A DNA stretch of 34,236 nucleotides, taken from contig JAGLMD010000022.1 of NCBI GenBank assembly GCA_023140175.1, forward strand, positions 1-34,236, in the 5' to 3' direction. The notes beneath the pieces were generated by a model. That model did not search any database. It was not told the DNA's origin and was given only the letters and a program-made list of their open reading frames with translations. The position numbers were made by a program, and so were the translations under genes. Of the stretch, positions 3,799 through 32,678 are shown one piece after another (the first letter of the stretch is position 1; the number at the start of each line of letters is the position of its first letter). Origin of the DNA: Nanobdellota archaeon (lineage in GTDB: Archaea > Nanobdellota > Nanobdellia > Woesearchaeales > WJIZ01).

Positions 3799-3820
3799 AT
3801 ATACATTTATAAATGTATAT
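3799..3820 (+). promoter_or_regulatory. 22-bp perfect palindrome centred on the elp3 TATA box
   Basis: Positions 3799-3820 form a perfect palindrome whose centre is TTTATAAA (3807-3814), about 30 nt before the ATG at 3837. A dimeric regulator bound here would cover the TATA box and block TBP. The leader would be very short or absent. Confidence 0.65.
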
Positions 3821-3836
3821 TTACTATGCTAGTTCT

Positions 3837-5519
3837 ATGTCCTATTATAAAGAGCTAATTTCAATAATCAAAAAGGAGCATCCTTCAAAAGATACTTTGT
3901 CTAAGATAAAGACAAGACTATGCAAGAAGCATTCTTTAAAAAAAATACCAACAGATATAGAAATCCTCCTCAATACCCCAAAAAAAGATATTCCTAAAAT
4001 AAAAAAATATATCCTTACCAAGCCAACAAGAAGCATCTCAGGAGTTGCTGTTATAGCTATAATGTCACAGCCATCAAAATGCCCTCATGGAAAATGCGCA
4101 ATTTGCCCAGGCGGATTAAACTCTGCTTTCGGAGATGTTCCTCAATCATACACTGGAAAAGAGCCTGCAACTAGGAGAGCAATAAGAAATGATTATGATC
4201 CATATCTGCAGGTCATGAATAGGCTGGAGCAGTATATAGTGCAGGGCCATACACCAGAAAAAGTAGAATTGATTGTTATGGGCGGCACATTTCCAGCATT
4301 AGAGAAAAAATACCAGGAAAACTTCATAAGATACTCACTAAAAGCAATGAATGATTTCTCAGCACTCTTTTTCAGGAAAAATATATTTGATATGGAGAAA
4401 TTCAAAGCTTTCTTTGAGCTTCCCAGAAAGATAGGAGATAAGGCAGATGAAAAAAGGATAAAGAAAAAACTCCTTAAAGAGAAAAAGAGTAAAAAAACCT
4501 CACTATTAAAAGAGCAAACTAAAAACGAGAAATCAAATATTAGATGTATCGGCTTAACAATGGAGACTAGGCCGGATTATGCAAAGATAAAACAAGCCAA
4601 TGAGATGCTAAGACTAGGCTGCACAAGAGTTGAACTAGGCATACAGACAGTATATGATAAAGTACTTGAAAAAATAGAAAGAGGCCATTCAGTAAAAGAC
4701 TCAATAGAATCTACCAGAATACTAAAAGATCTCGGCTTCAAGATAAACTATCATGTCATGCCAGGCCTGCCCTTAGTCACATTGAAGCAGGATTTAGCTG
4801 CCCTTAAGAAACTCTTTGAAGATGAAAATTTCCGCCCGGACATGCTGAAGATCTACCCTTGTATGGTCTTGAAAGGCACTAAACTGTTTGAAGATTGGAA
4901 AAAAGGTAATTTCTCACCATTAACAACAGAAAAAGCAGCTTCATTAATAACAGAATTCAAGAGATATGTTCCAGAATATGTAAGGATAATGCGCGTCCAA
5001 AGAGATATTCCGACATTCATGACAGAAGCTGGCGTAGATAAGACAAACCTAAGGCAGTACATAGAAAAAGAACTAAAGAAAAAAGGGATAAGATGCAGAT
5101 GCATAAGATGCAGAGAAATCGGAAGAACAAACGAAGAGATAAAAGATTATAAGATAAAGATAATAAGATATAAAGCTTCCAAAGGCAGGGAATTTTTTAT
5201 AGCAGCAGAAAAAAATGATAGTATAGTCGGCTTTTGTAGACTAAGATTTCCTTCGCAGCAATTAAGGAAAGAGATAACAAAGGAATCTGTTCTGATAAGG
5301 GAATTGCATGTCTATGGTGAATCAACTGAGTTAGGGAAAAAAGGAAAAGTACAGCATAAGGGCATAGGAAAAGAATTGCTGAAACATGCTGAAAACATCT
5401 CCAAAAAAAACAATTACAAGAAGATTGTTGTTATCTCAGGTATAGGCGCAAGAGATTATTACAGAAAACTCGGCTATAAGAAAGAAGGTGTTTATATGGT
5501 TAAGACAGCAAAACAGTAG
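3837..5519 (+). CDS. elp3: Elp3-type tRNA U34 carboxymethyl-modifying radical SAM/acetyltransferase
   Basis: Archaeal Elp3 uses a radical-SAM cluster and acetyl-CoA to install the carboxymethyl group at C5 of wobble uridine in tRNA. The cluster ligands C82, C87 and C90 lie in CPHGKCAICPGG (an Elp3-type CX4CX2C spacing). RLGCTRVELGIQT and HVMPGLP mark the radical SAM barrel, and the C-terminal GNAT domain shows ELHVYG, QHKGIGKELL for acetyl-CoA binding, and ARDYYRKLGY. A Lys-rich linker of about 40 residues lies in the barrel region. I chose the ATG at 3837, 30 nt from the TATA box, over an in-frame ATG 24 nt upstream that lies inside the promoter. The protein is 560 residues and complete. Confidence 0.95.
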   Translation: MSYYKELISIIKKEHPSKDTLSKIKTRLCKKHSLKKIPTDIEILLNTPKKDIPKIKKYILTKPTRSISGVAVIAIMSQPSKCPHGKCAICPGGLNSAFGDVPQSYTGKEPATRRAIRNDYDPYLQVMNRLEQYIVQGHTPEKVELIVMGGTFPALEKKYQENFIRYSLKAMNDFSALFFRKNIFDMEKFKAFFELPRKIGDKADEKRIKKKLLKEKKSKKTSLLKEQTKNEKSNIRCIGLTMETRPDYAKIKQANEMLRLGCTRVELGIQTVYDKVLEKIERGHSVKDSIESTRILKDLGFKINYHVMPGLPLVTLKQDLAALKKLFEDENFRPDMLKIYPCMVLKGTKLFEDWKKGNFSPLTTEKAASLITEFKRYVPEYVRIMRVQRDIPTFMTEAGVDKTNLRQYIEKELKKKGIRCRCIRCREIGRTNEEIKDYKIKIIRYKASKGREFFIAAEKNDSIVGFCRLRFPSQQLRKEITKESVLIRELHVYGESTELGKKGKVQHKGIGKELLKHAENISKKNNYKKIVVISGIGARDYYRKLGYKKEGVYMVKTAKQ

Positions 5520-5757: not shown

Positions 5758-5765
5758 TTTATAAA
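5758..5765 (+). promoter_or_regulatory. TATA box upstream of the 1312-aa gene
   Basis: TTTATAAA here predicts transcription start near 5785-5790. That is the ATG of a seven-codon frame rather than the main ATG at 5818. Confidence 0.55.
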
Positions 5766-5817: not shown

Positions 5818-8800
5818 ATGACGAGTAAAAATAAAAACAATCGGAAAAAGGAGCCAAGATCAGTAGATTTAGATATCTCTAACTTACCCCTCTCCTCAGT
5901 GGAAAAACTGGTTGAATTAGGCGACCTTGAAGAAGAGACAGGAGAAGAAAGTGATGCAGAACACGAGGAAACAATATCTGAATTTCTTGATCTGGATAAC
6001 CTAAAAAATGAGTTGTTGGGTGATGGAATAGAAGAATTCTATATAATTAAAGAAGAATCTATTGAAAACTTGGCAAAAAAAGTCATTCCGGAAAAAGATG
6101 TTGTGAATGAGCTTACAGGCATTGAAGATATAGATTACAGGGGATTCAAAGCAGAACTGCCCAGAATGGGTATCTCCGGATTTAATCTCATCTCCATACC
6201 TAATCAGGGAAGCGGAAAAGAAAAAAGATATTATTCAAAAGAACAGATAAATGAAGTGAAGGGCTCTTTCAGAAAAGATGATCTGAAAAAAGCTGCATTA
6301 GGGCACCTCATCAAAGCTGAAGCAAAAGCGCATAGTAAAATCACTGCAAAAGGAAAGACGATTGAGGAAGTCATAAATCACCTGAGCCTGCCATTGGATG
6401 AATCAAGCAGAGAAAGGATAGGAGAATACAATGCAAATGGCGCTTTGCATCTCGAAGAATTAGGAATATCAAAGATTATAGCTTCAGAAAGAAGAGGGAT
6501 TAAAGAAGAAGATATTCGTTCTCTCTATCTTGAGCATTACGGCCTTGACTTTCCTGGATTGAACAATGAGCTTAAATCCAAATATGGCCATGTGATCAAA
6601 TTAGATAAAGACGGACAAAGCATGAGATTGAGGCTTACAGAAGAAAAGGTAAGGGAACTATCAGGAAAAGATGGCAAGGATTCAGTTTCTGTTTACAGAT
6701 ATAAAAGAAAGGAGTTTATACTTGGAGGAATAAAACTGCGCGCTTCTGATAAGAAGATCAAGGCATTCATGGATAGCCTGATTACAGCTGAAAGCTTCGC
6801 ATCTCAGATTTTCCCAGAGCATAGGGAATATTTCACAAATCTGCACGACTTAGATCTTGAAGAATTCCTGAAAAAAGAAGCAGGCATCTACCAGGCAGAA
6901 AAAGGATTAGAATTACTGCCCGCAATAAAAGGAAAGTATCATGAATTGGATAAAGGCCAGTTCATAGGATTGATGGGAAAAGACAGGCATGATATTATCC
7001 AAAAAGGATTGAAACTAAGGATAGCTTTAGCATCCTACGAAAAAAAGGACTCTGAGAATTTTACAATAGGGGCTATAGCAAAGCTCTTCTCAACTTCTTC
7101 TGAAAAAATGATGAGCTTGGACATAGCAGAAGATATGGGGCTTATAAAGCAGATTTCAGAATCAGGGCAGGATTATCATGCACTCAACAATGTCTATCTT
7201 ATGCATCTTAAAGGCAGGCAAAGCTCGATTGATGGAAAAGTAGAGTTCAATGACAGCAATATCAGGGATTGGAGAATAAGGCCTGAAGTGATGTCAGAGT
7301 TCACTAGCAAAAAATTTGAGAATTCTGTGTTAGATGTGAAAAAAGCAAATGAAGAGCTGAAAAGGCAGTATGAGATCGATGGGATTGATAGAAATAAAAG
7401 AAGATATATTCCGGAAATTTTTATGCCATTCAGGATTGGGAAAAAACTTGTGAATACTGCACAGCATAACAGAGAGATAAAAAAGATTCTTGAAAAAAAG
7501 GACATCAGAAAAAGGATTGAATGGGCAGAAAATATATCTTATTACCAGGAAGATCCTGGAGAAAGATATGTAAAGCTGGAAAAAGTAAAAGATGAGCTTG
7601 GCCTCAATGATAAAGACTGGGAAAAAGTCAAAAAATCAATAAGAACTATAGTGCCTGGTGTTGAAGAGATAAAAAGGATAGAAAGCACACTGAAGAACAA
7701 GAATATGAAAAAGCCTACAAAAGACCCGGAAGTATTCTACAAAAAATATTATAGGCATATAGCAAGCTATGACAATGAATATATCACAAAAGCCCGGTTT
7801 GACAGGATAAGAGACAACCTTGTAAGCAGGGATAATCTCTCAAAAAAGCTCACAGGCATTGATGCTGATTACCCCTTATTGCAGAAAGAGATGGAAATAA
7901 GAGGATACAGCCTTGAAGGATTATTGCATACTGTCTCGATTTCTGAAAAGAATGAAGATTCGGCTATGCAGAAAGAAGAAAGAACCGGTTTCTACATTAG
8001 ATCAAATATAGAGTTAGTCAAAAAGAATCTTGAAAAGAGTTCAGATTACAGGAAGATTCAGATAGGGCTTGCTTTAAGAAATGCATGGAATGAGGCAGAA
8101 GAAGAGATAAGCCGGATTAAATATTCCAGTCCTGAACAGGCAGCAGATGTTCTGGGCTCAAAAAACATAGGCATATTGATAGAGAAAGAATTGCTGAAAA
8201 AGAAAGACATAAGCATAGCCCCGATACTCAAAAAGATTATAGAACAGAAATATAGCATAAGAATGAAGGAAGAAGAGATAAGAGAATTCTACCAGGAAGA
8301 TGGAAGATATGAATTCAAGCTTGTGAAAGCTATAACCAACCTTGATGAGTTCCTCGCAAAAACAGTCCCTATAAGTGCAGTAAGAACTAAATTAGGCTCA
8401 AACTGGCTTGGAGACATATTTTATACCCATTTCCTGGAACAGAATAATCCAGTTGTGCTTCACATTGAAAATGAGTATAAGTATCATGAATCTAACATTT
8501 CCAGGCTTCAGAACATAAAGCTGCCAAGATCTATGTTGAGAAAGGCTGTGGCAAATGAGCTTAAGATAGAAGGTGCTCCAAAGAGAGACTATACAATATT
8601 CTCAGATTTGCCACGGGAAATAACTATTGAACATATAAAGAGCATAGAAGACAGTGTTGAAATGTTTAAGTCAGGATGTTTAAGCCAAAAACAGATATTG
8701 CAGAAGATAGGAACAACAATAAACAGCTTGGTAATAAACAAACTTATGCAGGAAGTTTTGCCAGGAAGCACCACTTTCCTCAATGGAAAGTATCATGCAC

Positions 8801-9756
8801 AGGACATATCTGATCTAAAAAATATTATTGATTCTTCAGCAGCGAAGCTTAAAATAGATAATAAATCATTTATATCGATGTACTCAAAAGATTATTTCCA
8901 GCTTAAGCAGACTGGATTAGAAAATTCCGAGATTAAGAAGCTCTTGAGCAGCTCATATAGCATCGACAAGCTGGATACATATTCTTCTTCCCTTGCAAAA
9001 TGGGCTAAGGCAAAAGCTACGACATTTACTTTAGAAGAAAAAACATATGTTCACCAGGATGACCTGCCTGTTTCGGAGATAAAACCAGAAGATATAACCT
9101 TAAAGGGTATCAATGGCCTGATTAGTACAGGCAGGTGGATAAGATATATGCAGGAAGAATTTAAGCACCAGAGAAACAGCCACCAAAAGAATTCAAAAGA
9201 GATAGCAAAACTTGAAAAGGATTATATCTCATACCTGATGAAAAGCGATGGCATTAATCCAAATGAAGAGTTCTATGACTTCAACCAGTTTATACAGGTT
9301 AATGATATAACAGAAACACTTATGGACAACAATATACACAACATAAACAGGATTACACTTAAAGATGAAAGGAAAAGGGAGGTTGACAGCCAGAATACAT
9401 ACTACACATCAAGAGAGGCAAAAGCAATACTTGGGATTAATTCAAAGAGAATTGCCAGAACTGGAATTCCCAATATAGGCGGACCGCAGTCAGGATTATA
9501 CAGGCTGGCTGACATAGCAGATTACATAAGAAAAACAAGCATACAGGACAAGCAGCATATAAAGAACATACGCATGGAACTGAAAAGTGATATAGACCTT
9601 ATCATGGCAAAAACGATGTTGTCACAGGGATATCATAATGAAGATATAAAGAAAATACTAAAGCTTCCTTCTGATATCTATAATGCCTCGAGAAAGAGAG
9701 TCGACGAAATGATAATAAAAAATTCAATGGATATTCTAAAACATTTATACCCATAA
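5818..9756 (+). CDS. Very large unknown protein with repeated HTH/MerR-like modules, 1312 aa
   Basis: I do not recognise the protein as a whole. It is soluble, highly charged and mostly helical, with an acidic N-terminus (residues 25-60). A recurrent pattern is visible: a helical segment, then a turn, then a Y-[HY]-x3-[IV] block resembling the end of winged or MerR-type HTH domains. Examples are RYYSKEQINEVK (137-148), GKYHELDKGQF (about 372-382), DYHALNNVYL (about 452-461), EYKYHESNISRL (about 886-897), GKYHAQDISDL (about 990-1000) and GLYRLADIADYI (about 1226-1237). The last follows TYYTSREAKAILGI, a good MerR-like helix-turn-helix near residue 1195. LEEFL/LDEFLAK-type segments precede several modules. 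No ATPase, nuclease or membrane motif is seen. It has its own promoter and no operon partner. A large multivalent DNA-binding or scaffold protein is my inference. Confidence 0.75.
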   Translation: MTSKNKNNRKKEPRSVDLDISNLPLSSVEKLVELGDLEEETGEESDAEHEETISEFLDLDNLKNELLGDGIEEFYIIKEESIENLAKKVIPEKDVVNELTGIEDIDYRGFKAELPRMGISGFNLISIPNQGSGKEKRYYSKEQINEVKGSFRKDDLKKAALGHLIKAEAKAHSKITAKGKTIEEVINHLSLPLDESSRERIGEYNANGALHLEELGISKIIASERRGIKEEDIRSLYLEHYGLDFPGLNNELKSKYGHVIKLDKDGQSMRLRLTEEKVRELSGKDGKDSVSVYRYKRKEFILGGIKLRASDKKIKAFMDSLITAESFASQIFPEHREYFTNLHDLDLEEFLKKEAGIYQAEKGLELLPAIKGKYHELDKGQFIGLMGKDRHDIIQKGLKLRIALASYEKKDSENFTIGAIAKLFSTSSEKMMSLDIAEDMGLIKQISESGQDYHALNNVYLMHLKGRQSSIDGKVEFNDSNIRDWRIRPEVMSEFTSKKFENSVLDVKKANEELKRQYEIDGIDRNKRRYIPEIFMPFRIGKKLVNTAQHNREIKKILEKKDIRKRIEWAENISYYQEDPGERYVKLEKVKDELGLNDKDWEKVKKSIRTIVPGVEEIKRIESTLKNKNMKKPTKDPEVFYKKYYRHIASYDNEYITKARFDRIRDNLVSRDNLSKKLTGIDADYPLLQKEMEIRGYSLEGLLHTVSISEKNEDSAMQKEERTGFYIRSNIELVKKNLEKSSDYRKIQIGLALRNAWNEAEEEISRIKYSSPEQAADVLGSKNIGILIEKELLKKKDISIAPILKKIIEQKYSIRMKEEEIREFYQEDGRYEFKLVKAITNLDEFLAKTVPISAVRTKLGSNWLGDIFYTHFLEQNNPVVLHIENEYKYHESNISRLQNIKLPRSMLRKAVANELKIEGAPKRDYTIFSDLPREITIEHIKSIEDSVEMFKSGCLSQKQILQKIGTTINSLVINKLMQEVLPGSTTFLNGKYHAQDISDLKNIIDSSAAKLKIDNKSFISMYSKDYFQLKQTGLENSEIKKLLSSSYSIDKLDTYSSSLAKWAKAKATTFTLEEKTYVHQDDLPVSEIKPEDITLKGINGLISTGRWIRYMQEEFKHQRNSHQKNSKEIAKLEKDYISYLMKSDGINPNEEFYDFNQFIQVNDITETLMDNNIHNINRITLKDERKREVDSQNTYYTSREAKAILGINSKRIARTGIPNIGGPQSGLYRLADIADYIRKTSIQDKQHIKNIRMELKSDIDLIMAKTMLSQGYHNEDIKKILKLPSDIYNASRKRVDEMIIKNSMDILKHLYP

Positions 9757-9805: not shown

Positions 9806-9813
9806 TTTAAATA
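9806..9813 (+). promoter_or_regulatory. TATA box of the m5C methyltransferase gene
   Basis: TTTAAATA begins 30 nt before the ATG at 9836, consistent with a leaderless message. Confidence 0.55.
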
Positions 9814-9835: not shown

Positions 9836-10798
9836 ATGCTTAATCCAATCCCTAACACAGAAGAAATAGAGATAAAACAAGGCTTCGAAGAACGCTATTC
9901 TAAATTAACAGACTGGGATGAATTCAAGAAATACTCACTATCCTTTCTAAGAAGAAGTATAAGAGTCAACACATTAAAGATGGCTGTAGAAGAATTGAAA
10001 GAAAGGATGCAAAAAGATTGGTCATTGACACAAATCCCCTGGTGCAAGCAAGGCTTCTGGATTGACCACAAAGGAAAAGGAGAAGATTATAGGAGAGACA
10101 TAGGCAACACAATAGAGCACCAGCTAGGATATATCTACATCCAGGAAGCTGCATCTATGATCCCCCCATTAGTCCTTGACCCGAAACCAGGAGAAATCAT
10201 CCTGGATATGTGCGCAGCTCCAGGCTCAAAATCCACTCAAATATCACAATATATGCAGAACAAAGGAATCCTTATAGCAAACGACTTCCTCGGAAAAAGA
10301 TTAGCTCCGTTAGGAATAAATATCCAAAGAACATCTGCATTAAACACATTGATAACATTGATGAAAGGAGACTGGTTTGCAAAATCAGGGATAAAATTTG
10401 ACAAAGTCCTTGTAGATGCTCCCTGCTCAGGCACAGGAACAATAAGGAAAAGCCTGAAAACACTGAGGATATGGAATCCTAACATGGTAAAGAAAATCGC
10501 AAATGAACAGAAAAGACTTATCGAGACTGGCTTTAATATACTAAAAGAAAACGGCATTTTAGTCTATTCAACCTGCTCATTAGAGCCAGAAGAAGATGAA
10601 GCAATAATAGATTTCCTTATTAAAAAATATGATAACGCAAGAATAGAAGAGATAAATTTAGAAGGATTGAAAAAAGGCAGCATAATAACTGAATTTGAAG
10701 GAAACAGATACTCTGAAGAGATAAAAAAATGCCTAAGGATCTGGCCGCAGGATAATGACACCGAGGGCTTCTTCGTAGCTAAAATAAAGAAATTATAA
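9836..10798 (+). CDS. NOL1/NOP2/Sun-family RNA (cytosine-C5) methyltransferase
   Basis: This enzyme methylates C5 of cytosine in tRNA or rRNA with S-adenosylmethionine. The SAM-binding motif DMCAAPGSKS, motif IV VDAPCSGTGT (Cys197) and motif VI YSTCSLEPEEDE (nucleophilic Cys247) are all intact, which is the two-cysteine arrangement of Rsm/NSUN enzymes. The 320-residue length matches archaeal tRNA m5C methyltransferases that lack extra RNA-binding domains. The start follows a TATA box by 30 nt. The target base cannot be told from sequence; tRNA is the usual substrate of short archaeal members. Confidence 0.92.
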   Translation: MLNPIPNTEEIEIKQGFEERYSKLTDWDEFKKYSLSFLRRSIRVNTLKMAVEELKERMQKDWSLTQIPWCKQGFWIDHKGKGEDYRRDIGNTIEHQLGYIYIQEAASMIPPLVLDPKPGEIILDMCAAPGSKSTQISQYMQNKGILIANDFLGKRLAPLGINIQRTSALNTLITLMKGDWFAKSGIKFDKVLVDAPCSGTGTIRKSLKTLRIWNPNMVKKIANEQKRLIETGFNILKENGILVYSTCSLEPEEDEAIIDFLIKKYDNARIEEINLEGLKKGSIITEFEGNRYSEEIKKCLRIWPQDNDTEGFFVAKIKKL

Positions 10799-12289: not shown

Positions 12290-12730
12290 ATGAATACAAA
12301 AAATAAGATTGGTGATATGCCTGCTTCTAGCCTCTTACTTCCAAGACTTACCAAAATCCAGAAAGAAGAAGGTTATCTCTCCGAAGAGAGGCTAAAGGAA
12401 CTAGCTAAAGAGATAAGCATACCAATAACAAGAATCTATGAAGTAGCCACATTTTACTCATTTATCACTATTGATAAAAAAGGGAAGTATGTGATAAGAG
12501 TATGTGCAAGCCCATCATGCCATATCAATGGCTCTGATGATATTCTTGAGATATTTGAAAGATTACTAGAGATAAAAGTTGGTGGAACAACTAAAGATAA
12601 TAAATTCACATTAGAAAAGACATCATGCATCGGCTGCTGCGATGAAGCACCTGCAGCGTTGATCAATGATGAAGCATACACAAAACTAAATGATGAAAAG
12701 ATCAGGGAAATACTGGCAAAATGCAAATAA
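12290..12730 (+). CDS. NuoE-like [2Fe-2S] subunit of an [FeFe]-hydrogenase complex (HydC/HndA type)
   Basis: This is a thioredoxin-fold [2Fe-2S] electron carrier subunit of 146 residues. The four ligands are C72 and C77 (CASPSCHING) and C113 and C117 (TSCIGCCDEAP), the NuoE C-X4-C and C-X3-C arrangement. The N-terminal helical bundle (LPRLTKIQKEEGYLSEE, ITRIYEVATFYSF) is also typical. It is first in the operon, and its last codons overlap the NuoF-like gene by 10 nt, which implies coupled translation and fixed stoichiometry. In trimeric NAD-linked hydrogenases this subunit sits next to the flavin subunit. The neighbouring HydA supports that reading over respiratory complex I. Confidence 0.93.
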   Translation: MNTKNKIGDMPASSLLLPRLTKIQKEEGYLSEERLKELAKEISIPITRIYEVATFYSFITIDKKGKYVIRVCASPSCHINGSDDILEIFERLLEIKVGGTTKDNKFTLEKTSCIGCCDEAPAALINDEAYTKLNDEKIREILAKCK

Positions 12731-13824
12731 CCCAGAAAACAGAATTCAAAGCTTTTGAAAAAGCAGTATCCATGAAGCCTGAAGAAGTTATCAGGATAGT
12801 TAAGGATTCGGGCCTGAAAGGGAGAGGGGGTGCTAATTTCCCCGCAGCATTGAAATGGCAGGCTGCAAGAAATTCACACAATCCGATGAAGATAGTCATA
12901 TGCAACGCTGATGAAGGTGAACCCGGGACATTCAAAGACAAATTCATCATAAAGAATAATCCCGGCGCATTGATAGAAGGTATTGCAATAGCATCATATG
13001 CTGTGGGTGCTAACCTTGCATACATCTATCTAAGGGGAGAATATGAATACTTAAGAAAGAGCCTGGAAGAAGTTATAAAAAAATATTCTGATCGACTATC
13101 AAAGATAGATCTTAAGATAGAGATAGTGATGGGTGCCGGAGCATATATCTGCGGAGACGAAACAGCGATAATGAATTCTATCCAGGAGCTCAGAGGTGAG
13201 CCTTGCGCAAAACCTCCTTATCCGGTCGAGAAAGGATTATGTGATTTCCCTACATCTATCAACAATGTTGAAACACTGGCAAACGTTCCCCTTATAATCA
13301 ATGGAAACTGGAAGGATATGAGATTATTCTCCCTATCAGGAGATGTAGAAAATCCGGGTATCTATGAACTGCCGTTAGGGATAACAGGAAAGGAACTGAT
13401 CGGGAAAGCCGGTCCAAAAAAAGATATAAAAGCATTATTCTTTGGCTGCGCTGGAGGCTGCGTTCCCTACAGCCCGGATATGATCCTCGATACAGATAAT
13501 ATGAAACAGATGGGTGCAATGCTTGGATCATGTACAGTCATCGCCATTAACTCAGACAAGAGTATTCCAAAGATATGCAAAAACATTGCAGAGTTCTTTG
13601 TCCATGAAAGCTGCGGCAAATGCACTCCCTGCAGAGAAGGTAATTTTAGGGTATTGCAGATATTAAATAAGATCATATCCAAAACTGCCACTAAAAAAGA
13701 TATGGAATGCCTGGAAGACCTTGCTAATTTCATCAATAAAACATCCCTTTGCGGCCTTGGCCAGGCTTCAAATATACACATTAAGACAGCACTCCAATAT
13801 TTTAAACAGGAGTTTACACAATGA
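12721..13824 (+). CDS. Shortened NuoF/HydB-like NAD(P)H- and FMN-binding [4Fe-4S] subunit
   Basis: The 367-residue protein carries the NuoF core: GLKGRGGANFPAALKW and CNADEGEPGTFKDKF for FMN/NADH, GAGAYICGDETAIMNSIQ, and the [4Fe-4S] ligands C298, C301, C304 (ESCGKCTPCREG) and C344 (SLCGLGQ). It begins directly at the flavin domain. The N-terminal thioredoxin-like [2Fe-2S] domain and the C-terminal ferredoxin domain present in many HydB/HndC proteins of about 600 residues are absent. It would oxidise or reduce NAD(P)(H) and pass electrons to HydA. The loss of extra clusters makes classical electron bifurcation with ferredoxin uncertain. It overlaps both neighbours (10 nt and 4 nt). Confidence 0.93.
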   Translation: MQITQKTEFKAFEKAVSMKPEEVIRIVKDSGLKGRGGANFPAALKWQAARNSHNPMKIVICNADEGEPGTFKDKFIIKNNPGALIEGIAIASYAVGANLAYIYLRGEYEYLRKSLEEVIKKYSDRLSKIDLKIEIVMGAGAYICGDETAIMNSIQELRGEPCAKPPYPVEKGLCDFPTSINNVETLANVPLIINGNWKDMRLFSLSGDVENPGIYELPLGITGKELIGKAGPKKDIKALFFGCAGGCVPYSPDMILDTDNMKQMGAMLGSCTVIAINSDKSIPKICKNIAEFFVHESCGKCTPCREGNFRVLQILNKIISKTATKKDMECLEDLANFINKTSLCGLGQASNIHIKTALQYFKQEFTQ

Positions 13825-15518
13825 TAAATATAGCAATTAACGGAATACAGATGCAGGTAGAAGAAGGAAAGACAATTTTAGAGACATGCCTAAAACATAA
13901 TATAGATGTTCCGTATCTTTGTTGGCACCCAGACCTGGCTGCCCAGGCAAGATGCAGGATCTGCATTGTTGAAGCCAATGGAAAAATGATCACATCCTGC
14001 AATACAAAAGTGCAGGAAGACATGAATATAGTGACAGAAAATGAAGAGATAATCAAAGCAAGAAAACTCAATCTTGAATTACTGATCGCCAATCATGATA
14101 TAATCAATGAAAATAATGAAGTTGCTGAACTTGCAAAAAAACTTGGAATAACTGAAAGCAGGTTTGATAAGCTGCATGACAAATCAGTTGATTCGACAAG
14201 TGCTGCTATTTATCGTGATAATAATAAGTGCATCCTATGCGGCAGATGTGTCCAGAAATGCCAGGAGATACAGTCGGTCTATGCTCTTGGATTCGCAAAC
14301 AGGGGGCATTACACAGAAGTAACCTCCTGGTTTGATCATGGGTTAGGAGAAGTTGCTTGTACCCAGTGCGGCCAGTGCAGCAATATATGCCCATCAGGGG
14401 CAATAACTGAAGTAGGCAGCATAAAAGAAGTGATGGATGCTGTCAAAGATCCTGACAAGGTTGTCATTGTACAGACTGCGCCGTCTATAAGGGGCACGCT
14501 GGGCGAGACACAGGGAATGCCTCCCGGAAGTTTAGTCACAGGAAAGATGGTATCTGCGCTAAGAAGAATCGGCTTTGACAAGGTACTCGACACAGACTTC
14601 ACAGCTGATCTTACTATCGTAGAAGAAGGGACTGAATTGATACATAGAATAAAGAACAAAGGGATTCTGCCTATGATCACTTCATGCAGCCCTGGCTGGA
14701 TTAAGTTCATCGAGCACTTCTTTCCAGAATTGCTGCCCAACCTAAGTACTTGTAAATCACCTCAGCAGATGTTCGGCACACTAGCAAAAACATACTACGC
14801 TGAAAAAAATAATATGGATCCTTCAAAGATAATCTCAGTCAGCATAATGCCCTGCACTGCTAAAAAGTTTGAATGTGCCAGACCGGAGATGGATGATTCA
14901 GGATTCAGGGATGTTGACTATGTCCTCACAACAAGAGAAACAGGAAAGATAATCAGCGCTGAAGGAATTGACTTTAAGAATCTGCCTGATGAATCCTTTG
15001 ACCCCATCATGGGCTCTTCTTCAGGAGCAGCAGCTATCTTCGGAGCAACTGGCGGAGTTATGGAAGCTGCATTAAGGACAGCTGCAGATATCCTTGAAGG
15101 GAAAGACCTGGAAAAATTTGAATACACCGCTGTAAGGGGCCAGGAAGGGATCAAAGAAGCTGCTGTAGAAGTTGCGGGCATGAAAATTAATGTTGCCATT
15201 GCCCATGGGCTTGAAAATGCAAGAAGATTGATGGAAACTGTCAAAGAAAATCCATCAAAATACCATTTTATCGAGATCATGGCCTGCGTAGGTGGATGCG
15301 TAGGGGGAGGGGGCCAGCCCATGCCCACTAATAGCGAAGTCATCAGGAAAAGATCAGGGGCGCTCTATAACCAGGATAAAAACCTGGAATTGAGAAAATC
15401 GCATAAGAACCCTGAGATAATCCAGTTATATAAAGATTTTTTAGGAGAAGCTGGAGGGCATAAAGCACACGAGTTATTGCATACAAAGTATACTAAAAGA
15501 AATGTGTTTGGAGATTAA
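13821..15518 (+). CDS. hydA: [FeFe]-hydrogenase catalytic subunit, group A, lacking the His-Cys3 cluster
   Basis: This subunit catalyses H2 evolution or uptake at the H-cluster, whose four ligands are intact: C289 (TSCSPGW), C345 (MPCTAKKFE), and C489 and C493 (MACVGGCVGGGGQP). The N-terminal [2Fe-2S] domain has C34, C45, C48 and C60. Two [4Fe-4S] motifs follow (KCILCGRCVQKC and CTQCGQCSNICPSG). Between them, the segment that normally ligates a [4Fe-4S] cluster through H-X3-C-X2-C-X5-C keeps its length and H92, but the three Cys positions are N96, N99 and A105. The 565-residue length matches M3-type enzymes. It overlaps the NuoF-like stop by 4 nt. Its maturases (HydE, HydF, HydG) are not in the window. 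Confidence 0.97.
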   Translation: MINIAINGIQMQVEEGKTILETCLKHNIDVPYLCWHPDLAAQARCRICIVEANGKMITSCNTKVQEDMNIVTENEEIIKARKLNLELLIANHDIINENNEVAELAKKLGITESRFDKLHDKSVDSTSAAIYRDNNKCILCGRCVQKCQEIQSVYALGFANRGHYTEVTSWFDHGLGEVACTQCGQCSNICPSGAITEVGSIKEVMDAVKDPDKVVIVQTAPSIRGTLGETQGMPPGSLVTGKMVSALRRIGFDKVLDTDFTADLTIVEEGTELIHRIKNKGILPMITSCSPGWIKFIEHFFPELLPNLSTCKSPQQMFGTLAKTYYAEKNNMDPSKIISVSIMPCTAKKFECARPEMDDSGFRDVDYVLTTRETGKIISAEGIDFKNLPDESFDPIMGSSSGAAAIFGATGGVMEAALRTAADILEGKDLEKFEYTAVRGQEGIKEAAVEVAGMKINVAIAHGLENARRLMETVKENPSKYHFIEIMACVGGCVGGGGQPMPTNSEVIRKRSGALYNQDKNLELRKSHKNPEIIQLYKDFLGEAGGHKAHELLHTKYTKRNVFGD

Positions 15519-22838: not shown

Positions 22839-23399
22839 ATGTTACTAAATAACCAAATACAGATATTTGAAGAGTTTTTAAGAGATTTCAATGCAAAACT
22901 GACTGGAAGTTTTATAGCTAAAAAAAAGAAGCTAAACCAAAAAACAGTTTCAAATTATCTAAACAGATTAGAAAAAGAGCATATCTTAAAGAGCAGAACA
23001 CAGGGAAGAAATAAACTATACTCATTAAACCTAAACAATAAAGAAATCGCAAAGAATTTTATAATAGCAGTCGAGCATCTAAGAACAATTAACTTCTACA
23101 GAAAGAATATCCTAATAAAAGAAATCGCAGAGAAAATAAACAATCACATTAAAGGAACAGCCATCGTATTCGGAAGTTATGCAAAAAATACCCAAAAGAA
23201 AGATTCTGATTTAGATATTTTAATAATTGGCAAATGTAATGAAAAAGAGATAAATAACATCTCAAAGATCTACAGGATAGAGATTAACCTGAAGATATAT
23301 CCAAAATTGGAACAAGACATTTTAACAAAAGAAGTTATTAAGAATCATATAATAATAAAGAATACAGAACAATTTATTGAGGAAATAATAAATGAATAA
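22839..23399 (+). CDS. Winged-helix plus MNT-type nucleotidyltransferase protein
   Basis: Residues 1-70 form a winged-helix domain (LNQKTVSNYLNRLEKEHILK with RTQGRNKLYSL as the wing). Residues about 105-135 carry the minimal nucleotidyltransferase motif GSYAKNTQKKDSDLDILII, with Gly-Ser and the two catalytic Asp residues. Proteins of this design are the antitoxin partner in MNT/HEPN pairs, and known MntA enzymes AMPylate their HEPN partner. The stop overlaps the next gene by 8 nt, so the two are co-translated. Its DNA-binding half makes it the likely autoregulator through the palindromes in its promoter. Confidence 0.85.
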   Translation: MLLNNQIQIFEEFLRDFNAKLTGSFIAKKKKLNQKTVSNYLNRLEKEHILKSRTQGRNKLYSLNLNNKEIAKNFIIAVEHLRTINFYRKNILIKEIAEKINNHIKGTAIVFGSYAKNTQKKDSDLDILIIGKCNEKEINNISKIYRIEINLKIYPKLEQDILTKEVIKNHIIIKNTEQFIEEIINE

Positions 23400-23862
23400 A
23401 ATCAAATGGTGCTTAAAAGCAAAAAACGGGCTTGAACTGATTAAGCCTAATGAAGATCTGACAAAAGCATACTTAAAAAAAGCAGAAAATTCATTAAGAG
23501 CAGCAGCAACATTAAAGGATAATAAAGACTGGGAAATTTCATCATCATATTATACAATGTATTTCTCGCTTTATGCAATATTAATGAAAATTGGAATCAA
23601 ATGCGAAATTCACTCCTGCACAATCAGTTTTATGCACCATTTTCTTAACAAATATTTCACAGATGAAGAAATTGAGCTAATTGAAAAATCGCAAAAAGCA
23701 AGGATAGACACCCAATATTATTCAGATAGGAATATATCTGATGAGTTATATAAAAGAATGATAAATAATACTGCTTTGTTTTTAGCAAAATGCAAGGAAA
23801 TATTAAATAAAATAAATGAAGATTCTATTCAGAAGATAAGGGATGATTTAGAAAAGGTATAA
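23392..23862 (+). CDS. HEPN-domain protein partner of the nucleotidyltransferase
   Basis: The 156-residue all-helical protein has the HEPN pattern: YLKKAENSLRAAATL, SSSYYTMYFSLYAILMKIGI and SQKARIDTQYY. In RNase-type HEPN toxins the R-X4-6-H motif follows the corresponding Arg (here R104), but this protein has Y109 and Y110 and no His in that interval. RNase activity is therefore doubtful, and it may belong to the substrate- or nucleotide-binding HEPN group. The start overlaps the MNT gene. A role as toxin, or as a regulatory partner of the transferase, is inferred from the pairing. Confidence 0.8.
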   Translation: MNKIKWCLKAKNGLELIKPNEDLTKAYLKKAENSLRAAATLKDNKDWEISSSYYTMYFSLYAILMKIGIKCEIHSCTISFMHHFLNKYFTDEEIELIEKSQKARIDTQYYSDRNISDELYKRMINNTALFLAKCKEILNKINEDSIQKIRDDLEKV

Positions 23863-23864
23863 GC

Positions 23865-24149
23865 ATGACCAAAGAATATACAGAAGATGAACTCATTGAA
23901 AAAACTGCAATTGAATTAATGCAGGAGGAATTAGATTATGATTATGAATATTGCTTTAATGAGTGGGATTCTGGTCAAAGTCTGTTCGGCAGGGAAACCA
24001 AATCAGATGTTGTTCTTGTTGAAAGATTAAGTAAGGCAATAGACAAACTCAATAATAATCTACCAAAAGAAGCAAAAAAGCAGGCTATTCAGGAATTAAC
24101 TAAAGATCGGAGCAGATTAAGCCCTGTAAAAGCAAATCAAGAAGTTTAG
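23865..24149 (+). pseudogene. 5' fragment of type I restriction subunit HsdR
   Basis: The 94 codons read DELIEKTAIELMQEELDYDY, ETKSDVVLVERLSKAIDKLN and LPKEAKKQAIQELTK followed by SPVKANQEV, the start of HsdR. It ends at a TAG where relatives have Tyr (ANQEVY), and the frame past the stop still reads RLIKDDCS as expected of HsdR before homology fades near 24175. The nuclease and helicase parts are absent. It starts 3 nt after the HEPN gene, so its expression may follow that operon, but no restriction function can remain. Confidence 0.8.
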
Positions 24150-31392: not shown

Positions 31393-31926
31393 TCAATTCT
31401 GAAAGCTTAGTTCTTTTTTAAAGTAATTAGCAATTCTATTCATTGCTTCTCTAACAGTTTGAAAATTACTGTTCTGTAAAATATCCGCATCAAATTTTGA
31501 AAATACTCTTTCGATCATATTCATCCAACTTGAATTTGTTGGAAGATAGACAATATGCAGTCTGGGATGAAAGAATTTCCATATTCTTATTGCATAAGAA
31601 GTATGAGCACTCCAACAATCAGCAATAACATAGATTTCTTTGTCAGGATATTTTTTTAGTAAGTCTTCAAAACATTCTATTACAATAAAACTATTTTTCC
31701 AGTCATAGAACCAGTGTATGATTTCGCCAGAATGCACATTAATGCAGGCAGGCATCTCTAAAAGTCCCCTAACTTTTTGTTTTGCAGGATGTTTTACAAT
31801 CTTTTCTTTTGTATAAACATGGCCGGCATATTGCTTGACGGCTATCTTTGCTTTCTCATCAAAACTAAAAACAATACTGTTTTCTGGAGGGTTCAGTATG
31901 AGCCCATCTATAATAAGTTTTTTTTT
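31393..31926 (-). CDS. IS630 transposase, second frame (DDE catalytic part)
   Basis: This frame is open from the A9 run and reads LIIDGLILNPPENSIVFSFD, EKAKIAVKQYAGHVYTKEK, then IYVIADCWSAHTSYAI and LPTNSSWMNMIERVF. The Asp in FSFDEKA, the Asp in IADCWSAH and the Glu in NMIERVF are the DDE triad of IS630. The first ATG is internal, so translation most likely depends on frameshifting or slippage at the A9 run. No stop or deletion damages the domain, so the element may still be active. Confidence 0.8.
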   Translation of the reverse strand, partial: KKKLIIDGLILNPPENSIVFSFDEKAKIAVKQYAGHVYTKEKIVKHPAKQKVRGLLEMPACINVHSGEIIHWFYDWKNSFIVIECFEDLLKKYPDKEIYVIADCWSAHTSYAIRIWKFFHPRLHIVYLPTNSSWMNMIERVFSKFDADILQNSNFQTVREAMNRIANYFKKELSFQN

Positions 31927-32555
31927 GCAAAGTTTGGATCATTGCTGTAAAGCCAAGAAGTTTTCTTCTTGTATTTAATCTCATCTTGTTTGATAATTCT
32001 TCCAAGTTGGGAAGGACTGACTTCAATCCCTTGTTTTTTTGCATAATCAGATAATTTTTTATGTCTCCAATTATTGAAGTGTAATCCTAATTTTTCCGGT
32101 TCTGTATTCAAATACTGAAGTATCTGAGCTCTCTCTTCGTTAGTTATTCTTCTTGGCTTGCCAAGACTTTTACCACGCTCAAAAATTTTTAGTTTTCCCC
32201 CATTAAATTGTTTAATAATTTTTTCAATTTTGGGCCTATGAAAACCGAGCTTTTGGCATGTTTGTTTCACCGTATTTCCTTCGCTAGATAAATGAATTAT
32301 TCTTGCTCTGTCTTTGATAAAGCTTTTACTATTCTTGAGATTTTTCTGGATAAAATCTCTTCCTTTTTTTGTTAGCTCTTTTACTTTCAGTCTTGGTTTC
32401 CTGCCGGCATTAGGATTTCTACGTTTATTGACAGGCTCTACAGCCCCAATATACTTTATTACTTGATGTCTCACTTTGCCTTTTTTGTCTCTATATCCTC
32501 GAACTAATGATTTGTATTTTCTTCCCTTGACTATGCTTATTTTTTCAAAAACCAT
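31908..32555 (-). CDS. IS630 transposase, first frame (DNA-binding part)
   Basis: The frame encodes 215 residues. Residues 1-42 (MVFEKISIVKGRKYKSLVRG then YRDKKGKVRHQVIKYIG) resemble the N-terminal beta segment of IS1634/IS4-like transposases. They are followed by two helix-turn-helix units (GNTVKQTCQKLGFHRPKIEK and LSDYAKKQGIEVSPSQLGRI) of the IS630/Tc1 kind. The frame ends at TAG just past the A9 run. GAGGTGA lies 6 nt before the ATG at 32555, so I prefer it over a GTG 9 nt upstream. A -1 shift at the A run would fuse it to the catalytic frame. Confidence 0.8.
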   Translation of the reverse strand: MVFEKISIVKGRKYKSLVRGYRDKKGKVRHQVIKYIGAVEPVNKRRNPNAGRKPRLKVKELTKKGRDFIQKNLKNSKSFIKDRARIIHLSSEGNTVKQTCQKLGFHRPKIEKIIKQFNGGKLKIFERGKSLGKPRRITNEERAQILQYLNTEPEKLGLHFNNWRHKKLSDYAKKQGIEVSPSQLGRIIKQDEIKYKKKTSWLYSNDPNFAKKNLL

Positions 32556-32678
32556 AGAAATCACCTCTCTAAGTAGTTAGCGACAACAAATATATAAATA
32601 TTTCGTCATAAAATGGTGTTTGTTGTAACAAACAAATAAAGAAACAACATTATAGAATTAGTCTACTTAAATGTGCAA

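Follow-up and report, generated by a model that had tools for sequence, protein, structure and literature searches.

The largest gene in the window, by which we mean the whole 34,236-nt stretch of archaeal DNA analysed here, encodes a 1312-residue protein that lies directly behind an ELP3 gene and contains at least two helix-turn-helix (HTH)-type modules. A relative of this protein occupies the same locus in another genome of the order, and short three-module proteins are encoded directly behind ELP3 in several more. Tentatively, we read the 1312-residue product (the giant) as an expanded, fast-evolving array of MerR-like modules that belongs to an ELP3-linked family and acts as a DNA-binding regulator, a reading that we hold to be possible but somewhat short of probable.

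The giant gene and its locus

The giant is encoded by a single unbroken frame (5818-9756, + strand), as the original prediction stated. Its surroundings in the genome of the window (G000) are as follows.

3813..5519, + strand: ELP3-type radical SAM tRNA-modification enzyme, the upstream neighbour (Pfam Radical_SAM_C, ELP3_N and GNAT)
5758..5765, + strand: archaeal TATA-like box TTTATAAA, 53 bp before the giant ATG, supported by its position only
5818..5997, + strand: N-terminal tail of the giant, residues 1-60, strongly charged (net charge -16 over residues 1-100)
9806-9813: TATA-like box before the m5C RNA methyltransferase gene
9836..10798, + strand: RsmB/F (NSUN)-type m5C RNA methyltransferase, the downstream neighbour (Pfam Methyltr_RsmB-F, E=1.6e-50)

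Residues 1-60 are probably disordered. A promoter of its own had been proposed for the gene, and this is plausible given the box in the 298-bp upstream gap, although TATA-like matches across the window are no more numerous than chance would give. Searches of Pfam, NCBIfam, PHROGs, PADLOC and PDB sequences returned nothing above cut-off for the giant or for its relative, which agrees with the earlier statement that the protein has no recognised catalytic domain; weak matches of the two to RepB_primase_C and DUF families were taken as chance. The genome of the window holds no paralogue. A 707-aa HTH_17-like ORF on another of its contigs (C142) was examined and is not a multi-module array.

Among the 353 genomes of the order, the giant has a relative in just one besides G000, namely G240, which belongs to another family. 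The two proteins align over giant residues 301-1215 with 26% identity (E=5.9e-62), and the N-terminal part is 30% identical. The G240 copy is split by an IS200/IS605-like element. Its N-terminal part, 257 aa in length, begins 28 bp after ELP3 at the edge of a contig and leads into the end of the element, and its C-terminal part (1077 aa) lies on another contig, after an IS200-like transposase and directly before the m5C methyltransferase gene. Both contigs share the end sequence of the element (L050:8030-8123 and L049:10780-11353). Beside the C-terminal part, L049:14660-15436 shows by eye caspase-like NGHG and DSCYS motifs, with no Pfam match (E 0.01). Order and strand are thus common to both genomes (ELP3, giant, m5C RNA methyltransferase), and the giant lies directly behind ELP3 on the same strand, with a gap of 298 bp in G000 and 28 bp in G240.

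The giant was absent from the other 59 genomes searched as nearest relatives, from all other examined members of the G000 family and from G239, which at this locus is closest to G240, shares its family and has ELP3 and NSUN directly adjacent. In G001, of the same genus as G000, ELP3 and the methyltransferase gene adjoin at a distance of 47 bp; the giant gene therefore sits in an extra 4.3 kb in G000. GTDB genome and viral collections yielded no relative, and sampled class- and phylum-wide searches found G000 and G240 only, beyond weak chance-level matches. Weak matches in G162 (a methionine synthase-like ORF), G204 (an ATP-grasp-like ORF) and G039 (where none of the ORFs read was a relative) were dismissed on reading. 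Carriage by 2 of 353 genomes indicates that the protein is dispensable. Our literature search found no description of such a protein and, with the database searches matching no described family, the prediction of an undescribed family holds. The label of orphan must be qualified by the one distant full-length relative and by probable short cousins, described below.

In the ELP3 and NSUN trees, G000 and G240 each fall within their own family and not together, which gives no sign that the whole locus was transferred between them. Either the giant gene is old and often lost, or it was acquired twice at one place. Its patchy presence, together with a divergence (26% identity) far beyond that of ELP3 and NSUN (67-69% between the same genomes), would suit a selfish or conflict gene, that is, mobile cargo, defence or counter-defence lodged in a gap that often receives foreign genes; the ELP3-NSUN gap does host many different genes across the order. 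We consider this explanation unlikely. The giant matches no PHROG or PADLOC family and has no viral relative, neither terminal repeats nor a recombinase lie beside it in G000, its codon use resembles that of its neighbours, and its recurrence in two distinct families, with place and strand unchanged, speaks against random insertion.

Across the order we inspected the surroundings of ELP3 in some 60 genomes. Neither the giant nor a short HTH protein occupies this site in the majority of genomes that carry ELP3 and NSUN. In several families the gap holds, on the opposite strand, a divergent family of multi-winged-helix proteins of 320-390 aa (L060:9159-10328, L088:1799-2836, L091:1792-2784 and L094:1770-2801; also L059:4461-5429), with weaker candidates at L035, L036, L038, L087 and L092. 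Like the giant, those of L060, L088, L091 and L094 occupy the ELP3-NSUN gap and evolve fast, and at least one (L060, with AbiEi_4, HTH_24 and TrmB-like matches) has several winged helices. They differ in being of the MarR/TrmB rather than the MerR type and in their length, and no sequence link to the giant was found. Several genomes of one family carry, by reading, patatin-like proteins between ELP3 and NSUN (L109:3410-4687, L115:1185-2477 and L116:1083-2231). Other large ORFs near ELP3 proved unrelated to the giant: a 1456-aa ORF of G018 encodes an acidic, secreted protein, and same-strand ORFs behind ELP3 in G277, G046, G130 and G159 look, by reading, to be of UvrA, protease or lipase type.

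Elsewhere in the window, a Bro-N protein at the edge (3-671) matches the PADLOC candidate defence family PDC-S13 (E=4e-90). Genes for a thioredoxin-like [2Fe-2S] protein, Nuo51 and an [FeFe]-hydrogenase are consecutive at 12290-15518 and resemble those of a trimeric bifurcating hydrogenase, a surprising find in an archaeon with a small genome. At 22839-24149, genes of nucleotidyltransferase, HEPN and HSDR_N-like type stand in a row, much like an MNT-HEPN toxin-antitoxin pair plus one adjacent gene. A transposase at 31393-32564 is in two pieces, with DDE_3 and HTH parts on separate ORFs, and has probably decayed.

HTH-type modules along the chain

The assigned modules of the giant, all on the + strand, are distributed along the chain, the C-terminus included.

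6091..6261, + strand: possible module 1, residues 92-148, with wing KRYYSKEQINEVKG; residues 90-236 match G240 residues 645-780
6847..6978, + strand: possible module, residues 344-387 (KYHELD...), with an aligned motif in G240 (RYHATDVLEI)
7057..7218, + strand: HTH module, residues 414-467, whose G240 counterpart is matched by HTH families
8119..8301, + strand: probable HTH module, residues 768-828 (SSPEQAADVLG; in G240 TLNEAARTLGITLNDL)
8338..8520, + strand: possible module, residues 841-901 (KYHESNISRLQNI), with a YH motif and an hhalign match to the next module over 13 columns
8653..8832, + strand: predicted MerR-like winged helix, residues 946-1005 (AlphaFold2 pLDDT 69.9, pTM 0.59), assigned by TM-scores
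9394..9540, + strand: C-terminal MerR-like HTH, residues 1193-1241 (YYTSREAKAILG...LYRLADIADYI), with weak HTH_17/MerR and short-family profile matches

Modelled alone with AlphaFold2, residues 936-1032 reached a pLDDT of 70, and the predicted module at 946-1005 has the layout H-E-H-H-wing-E-H, which corresponds to winged-helix topology (strand-helix-turn-helix-wing-helix). The PDB structures with the highest TM-scores were MerR-type winged helices: RacA (TMt 0.61, rmsd 2.6), CbpM, MtaN and GlnR/TnrA. Foldseek gave no significant E-value for this module against the PDB; by E-value EF-hands outranked the MerR types, yet their TM-scores were 0.25-0.35. No further good copy of the module was found in G000, G240 or five relatives. 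Several HTH families match the same 20 residues in the G240 counterpart of 414-467, among them Sigma70_r4 (E=0.0011) and Rv2175c_wHTH (E=0.011). The giant thus has at least two HTH-type modules, one by its predicted fold and one through its relative.

At the C-terminus, where a MerR-like HTH had been predicted, HTH_17 matches residues ~1195-1214 with E=0.11 (13.2 bits vs a cut-off of 27), the MerR-like phrog_2474 matches the G240 equivalent with E=0.21, and the profile of the short ELP3-linked family matches as well, all of which support the assignment. That HTH_17 match is the best of any giant module to a curated family, and none reaches a cut-off. The original prediction of several DNA-binding-like modules in one chain therefore stands for at least two of HTH type, whereas most of the others are weaker candidates assigned by motif and position. 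The G240 counterpart of 768-828, for instance, is weakly matched by the HMM of the short-family N-module at a score not above that of unrelated proteins, and for module 1 the short-family HMM gives a weak wing match at residues 136-146. Pfam and NCBIfam searches found no effector domain, so that the classical MerR plan (N-terminal HTH, coiled coil, effector domain) does not describe this protein.

The modules had been recognised by a Y-[HY]-x3-[IV] signature said to occur in at least six segments. In its strict form the signature occurs only three times (at 889, 992 and 1272), against a mean of 0.46 in shuffled sequences (P=0.01). A looser MerR-wing form, Y[HYKR]x2-4[DN][IVLAF], occurs six times (453, 887, 889, 992, 1228 and 1272) vs a shuffle mean of 1.37, with a P of 0.0035 that flatters the pattern, as it was picked after the sequence had been seen and the matches at 887 and 889 overlap. 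The match at 1272 falls outside the assigned modules. Repeats within the giant are weak at the sequence level: cross-matching of its module HMMs did not rise above shuffles, and hhalign of giant windows against each other was slightly above null. The match of residues 90-236 to G240 residues 645-780 scored 29.6 bits, and 1 of 500 shuffles scored higher.

This low similarity between modules, a composition rich in K, E, I and L, and a pLDDT of 33 for residues 301-1312 (AlphaFold2, two-row alignment) are what would be expected of an ordinary large helical or coiled-coil scaffold in which YH motifs and HTH look arose by chance. We regard that as improbable, since the motif is partly retained at aligned sites of a relative with 26-27% identity, one module is predicted to fold in isolation as a winged helix, and another is matched at one helix pair by several HTH families. 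Strand-helix-helix-strand-helix patterns appear even in the low-confidence model, at about 954-1000 and 1195-1230.

Short three-module proteins behind ELP3

Short three-module proteins of 225-256 aa (one cut at a contig end) are encoded on the same strand directly behind ELP3 in genomes of five taxonomic families (G276, G141, G015, G172, G321, G057 and G236), and this ELP3-linked family is first described here. The G276 protein (L089) matches Pfam HTH_17 above cut-off (E=2.1e-6) and MerR with E=4e-4; the modules of the giant, which would be of the same HTH_17/MerR kind (PF12728, PF00376), differ in that all fall below cut-off. Against the PDB, the N-module of the family matches Gp37, BldC, BrlR and RacA (E 0.0014-0.1). 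A locus-independent search of 82 genomes found good relatives in G015 (E=1e-13) and G057 (5e-9), both directly behind ELP3, and four further loci were inspected beyond that search.

The giant and the short family are likely to be kin, in our view, as position and module type agree. The short-family profile scored higher against three giant segments than did unrelated two-row profiles from the same loci, which formed small control sets (20.1 vs a best of 18.2 among 77; 21.0 vs 19.1 among 46; 22.9 vs 19.6 among 16), and a fourth segment gave P=0.05. These scores are suggestive of giant modules slightly nearer to the short-family profile than unrelated proteins are. By HMM score, the short-family HMM did not separate the giant from unrelated proteins, hhalign probabilities between giant and short family were <5%, and no single sequence link between them reached significance. 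The giant may have outgrown the other members of a regulator family that is as yet undescribed.

A proposed role at the ELP3 locus

We propose that the giant is a single chain that lacks an enzyme domain and strings together some six to eight MerR-like winged-helix modules by way of helical linkers, and that it would represent an extreme, fast-evolving expansion of the short proteins encoded behind ELP3. Several such winged helices and the lack of a catalytic domain make nucleic-acid binding the most likely activity. The modules would grip nucleic acid side by side, for example on long or repeated DNA, and the chain, with its avidity and tunable site length, would serve as a regulator. ELP3 is an enzyme of tRNA U34 modification (PMC13315578). 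Its constancy as a neighbour, together with that of the m5C methyltransferase, suggests a role tied to the locus, either as a regulator or as an RNA-binding partner; the giant would then work in connection with ELP3 and RNA modification, in the simplest case by regulating the ELP3 locus.

The second of these roles, in which the winged helices would bind tRNA or rRNA and pass it to ELP3 or the m5C methyltransferase, or serve the enzymes as a scaffold, is an outside prospect in our estimate. SelB, for comparison, binds RNA through winged helices in tandem. The giant lies between the two RNA-modification genes in both genomes and the short relatives directly behind ELP3, and reading frames overlap among ELP3, the short HTH gene and NSUN in G172, as in an operon-like arrangement, and between ELP3 and the HTH gene in G015. 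The near-zero charge of the giant (222 K+R vs 216 D+E) does not require DNA binding, and it counts against our own reading, since a chain whose task is to coat DNA would not usually be so close to neutral. Known members of the MerR/HTH_17 type bind DNA, however, and because the recognisable modules are of this type we prefer a DNA-binding regulator; the many ELP3- and NSUN-bearing genomes with no such protein at the site further indicate that it is not needed for modification. The same near-neutral charge, presence in 2 of 353 genomes and the fact that the constant neighbours are enzymes of RNA modification speak against the chromosome-organising role that had also been suggested.

Among known systems, BldC offers a close parallel to an array: its MerR-like subunits, each a single domain, assemble head to tail along direct repeats in DNA (PMC5859096). 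Like the proposed modules, BldC of Streptomyces (PDB 6amk, 6ama) is a small MerR-like winged helix without coiled coil or effector domain, and the short ELP3-linked family matches it with E=0.006. BldC has 68 aa and forms its array by oligomerisation, whereas the giant would hold its units fused within a single chain; descriptions of BldC-like proteins come from eubacteria, and the giant is archaeal. RacA, a MerR-like chromosome-anchoring protein of Bacillus (PDB 5i44, 5i41), has the best TM-score for module 946-1005 and is weakly matched by the short family with E=0.096, but it is built on one winged helix where the giant is a putative array. RacA also has a coiled-coil part.

A bolder form of our proposal, which we would call speculative, is that an undescribed archaeal family of ELP3-coupled MerR-like proteins exists in which two lineages grew from three modules to a covalent, BldC-type filament of 1300 residues on DNA. 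If this is right, archaea would couple the universal enzyme of tRNA wobble modification to a DNA- or RNA-binding partner that is dedicated to it and changes rapidly, and MerR-like modules would prove capable of being fused into a single very long chain. Because of their small size the short relatives could be expressed and assayed, which makes the question directly testable.
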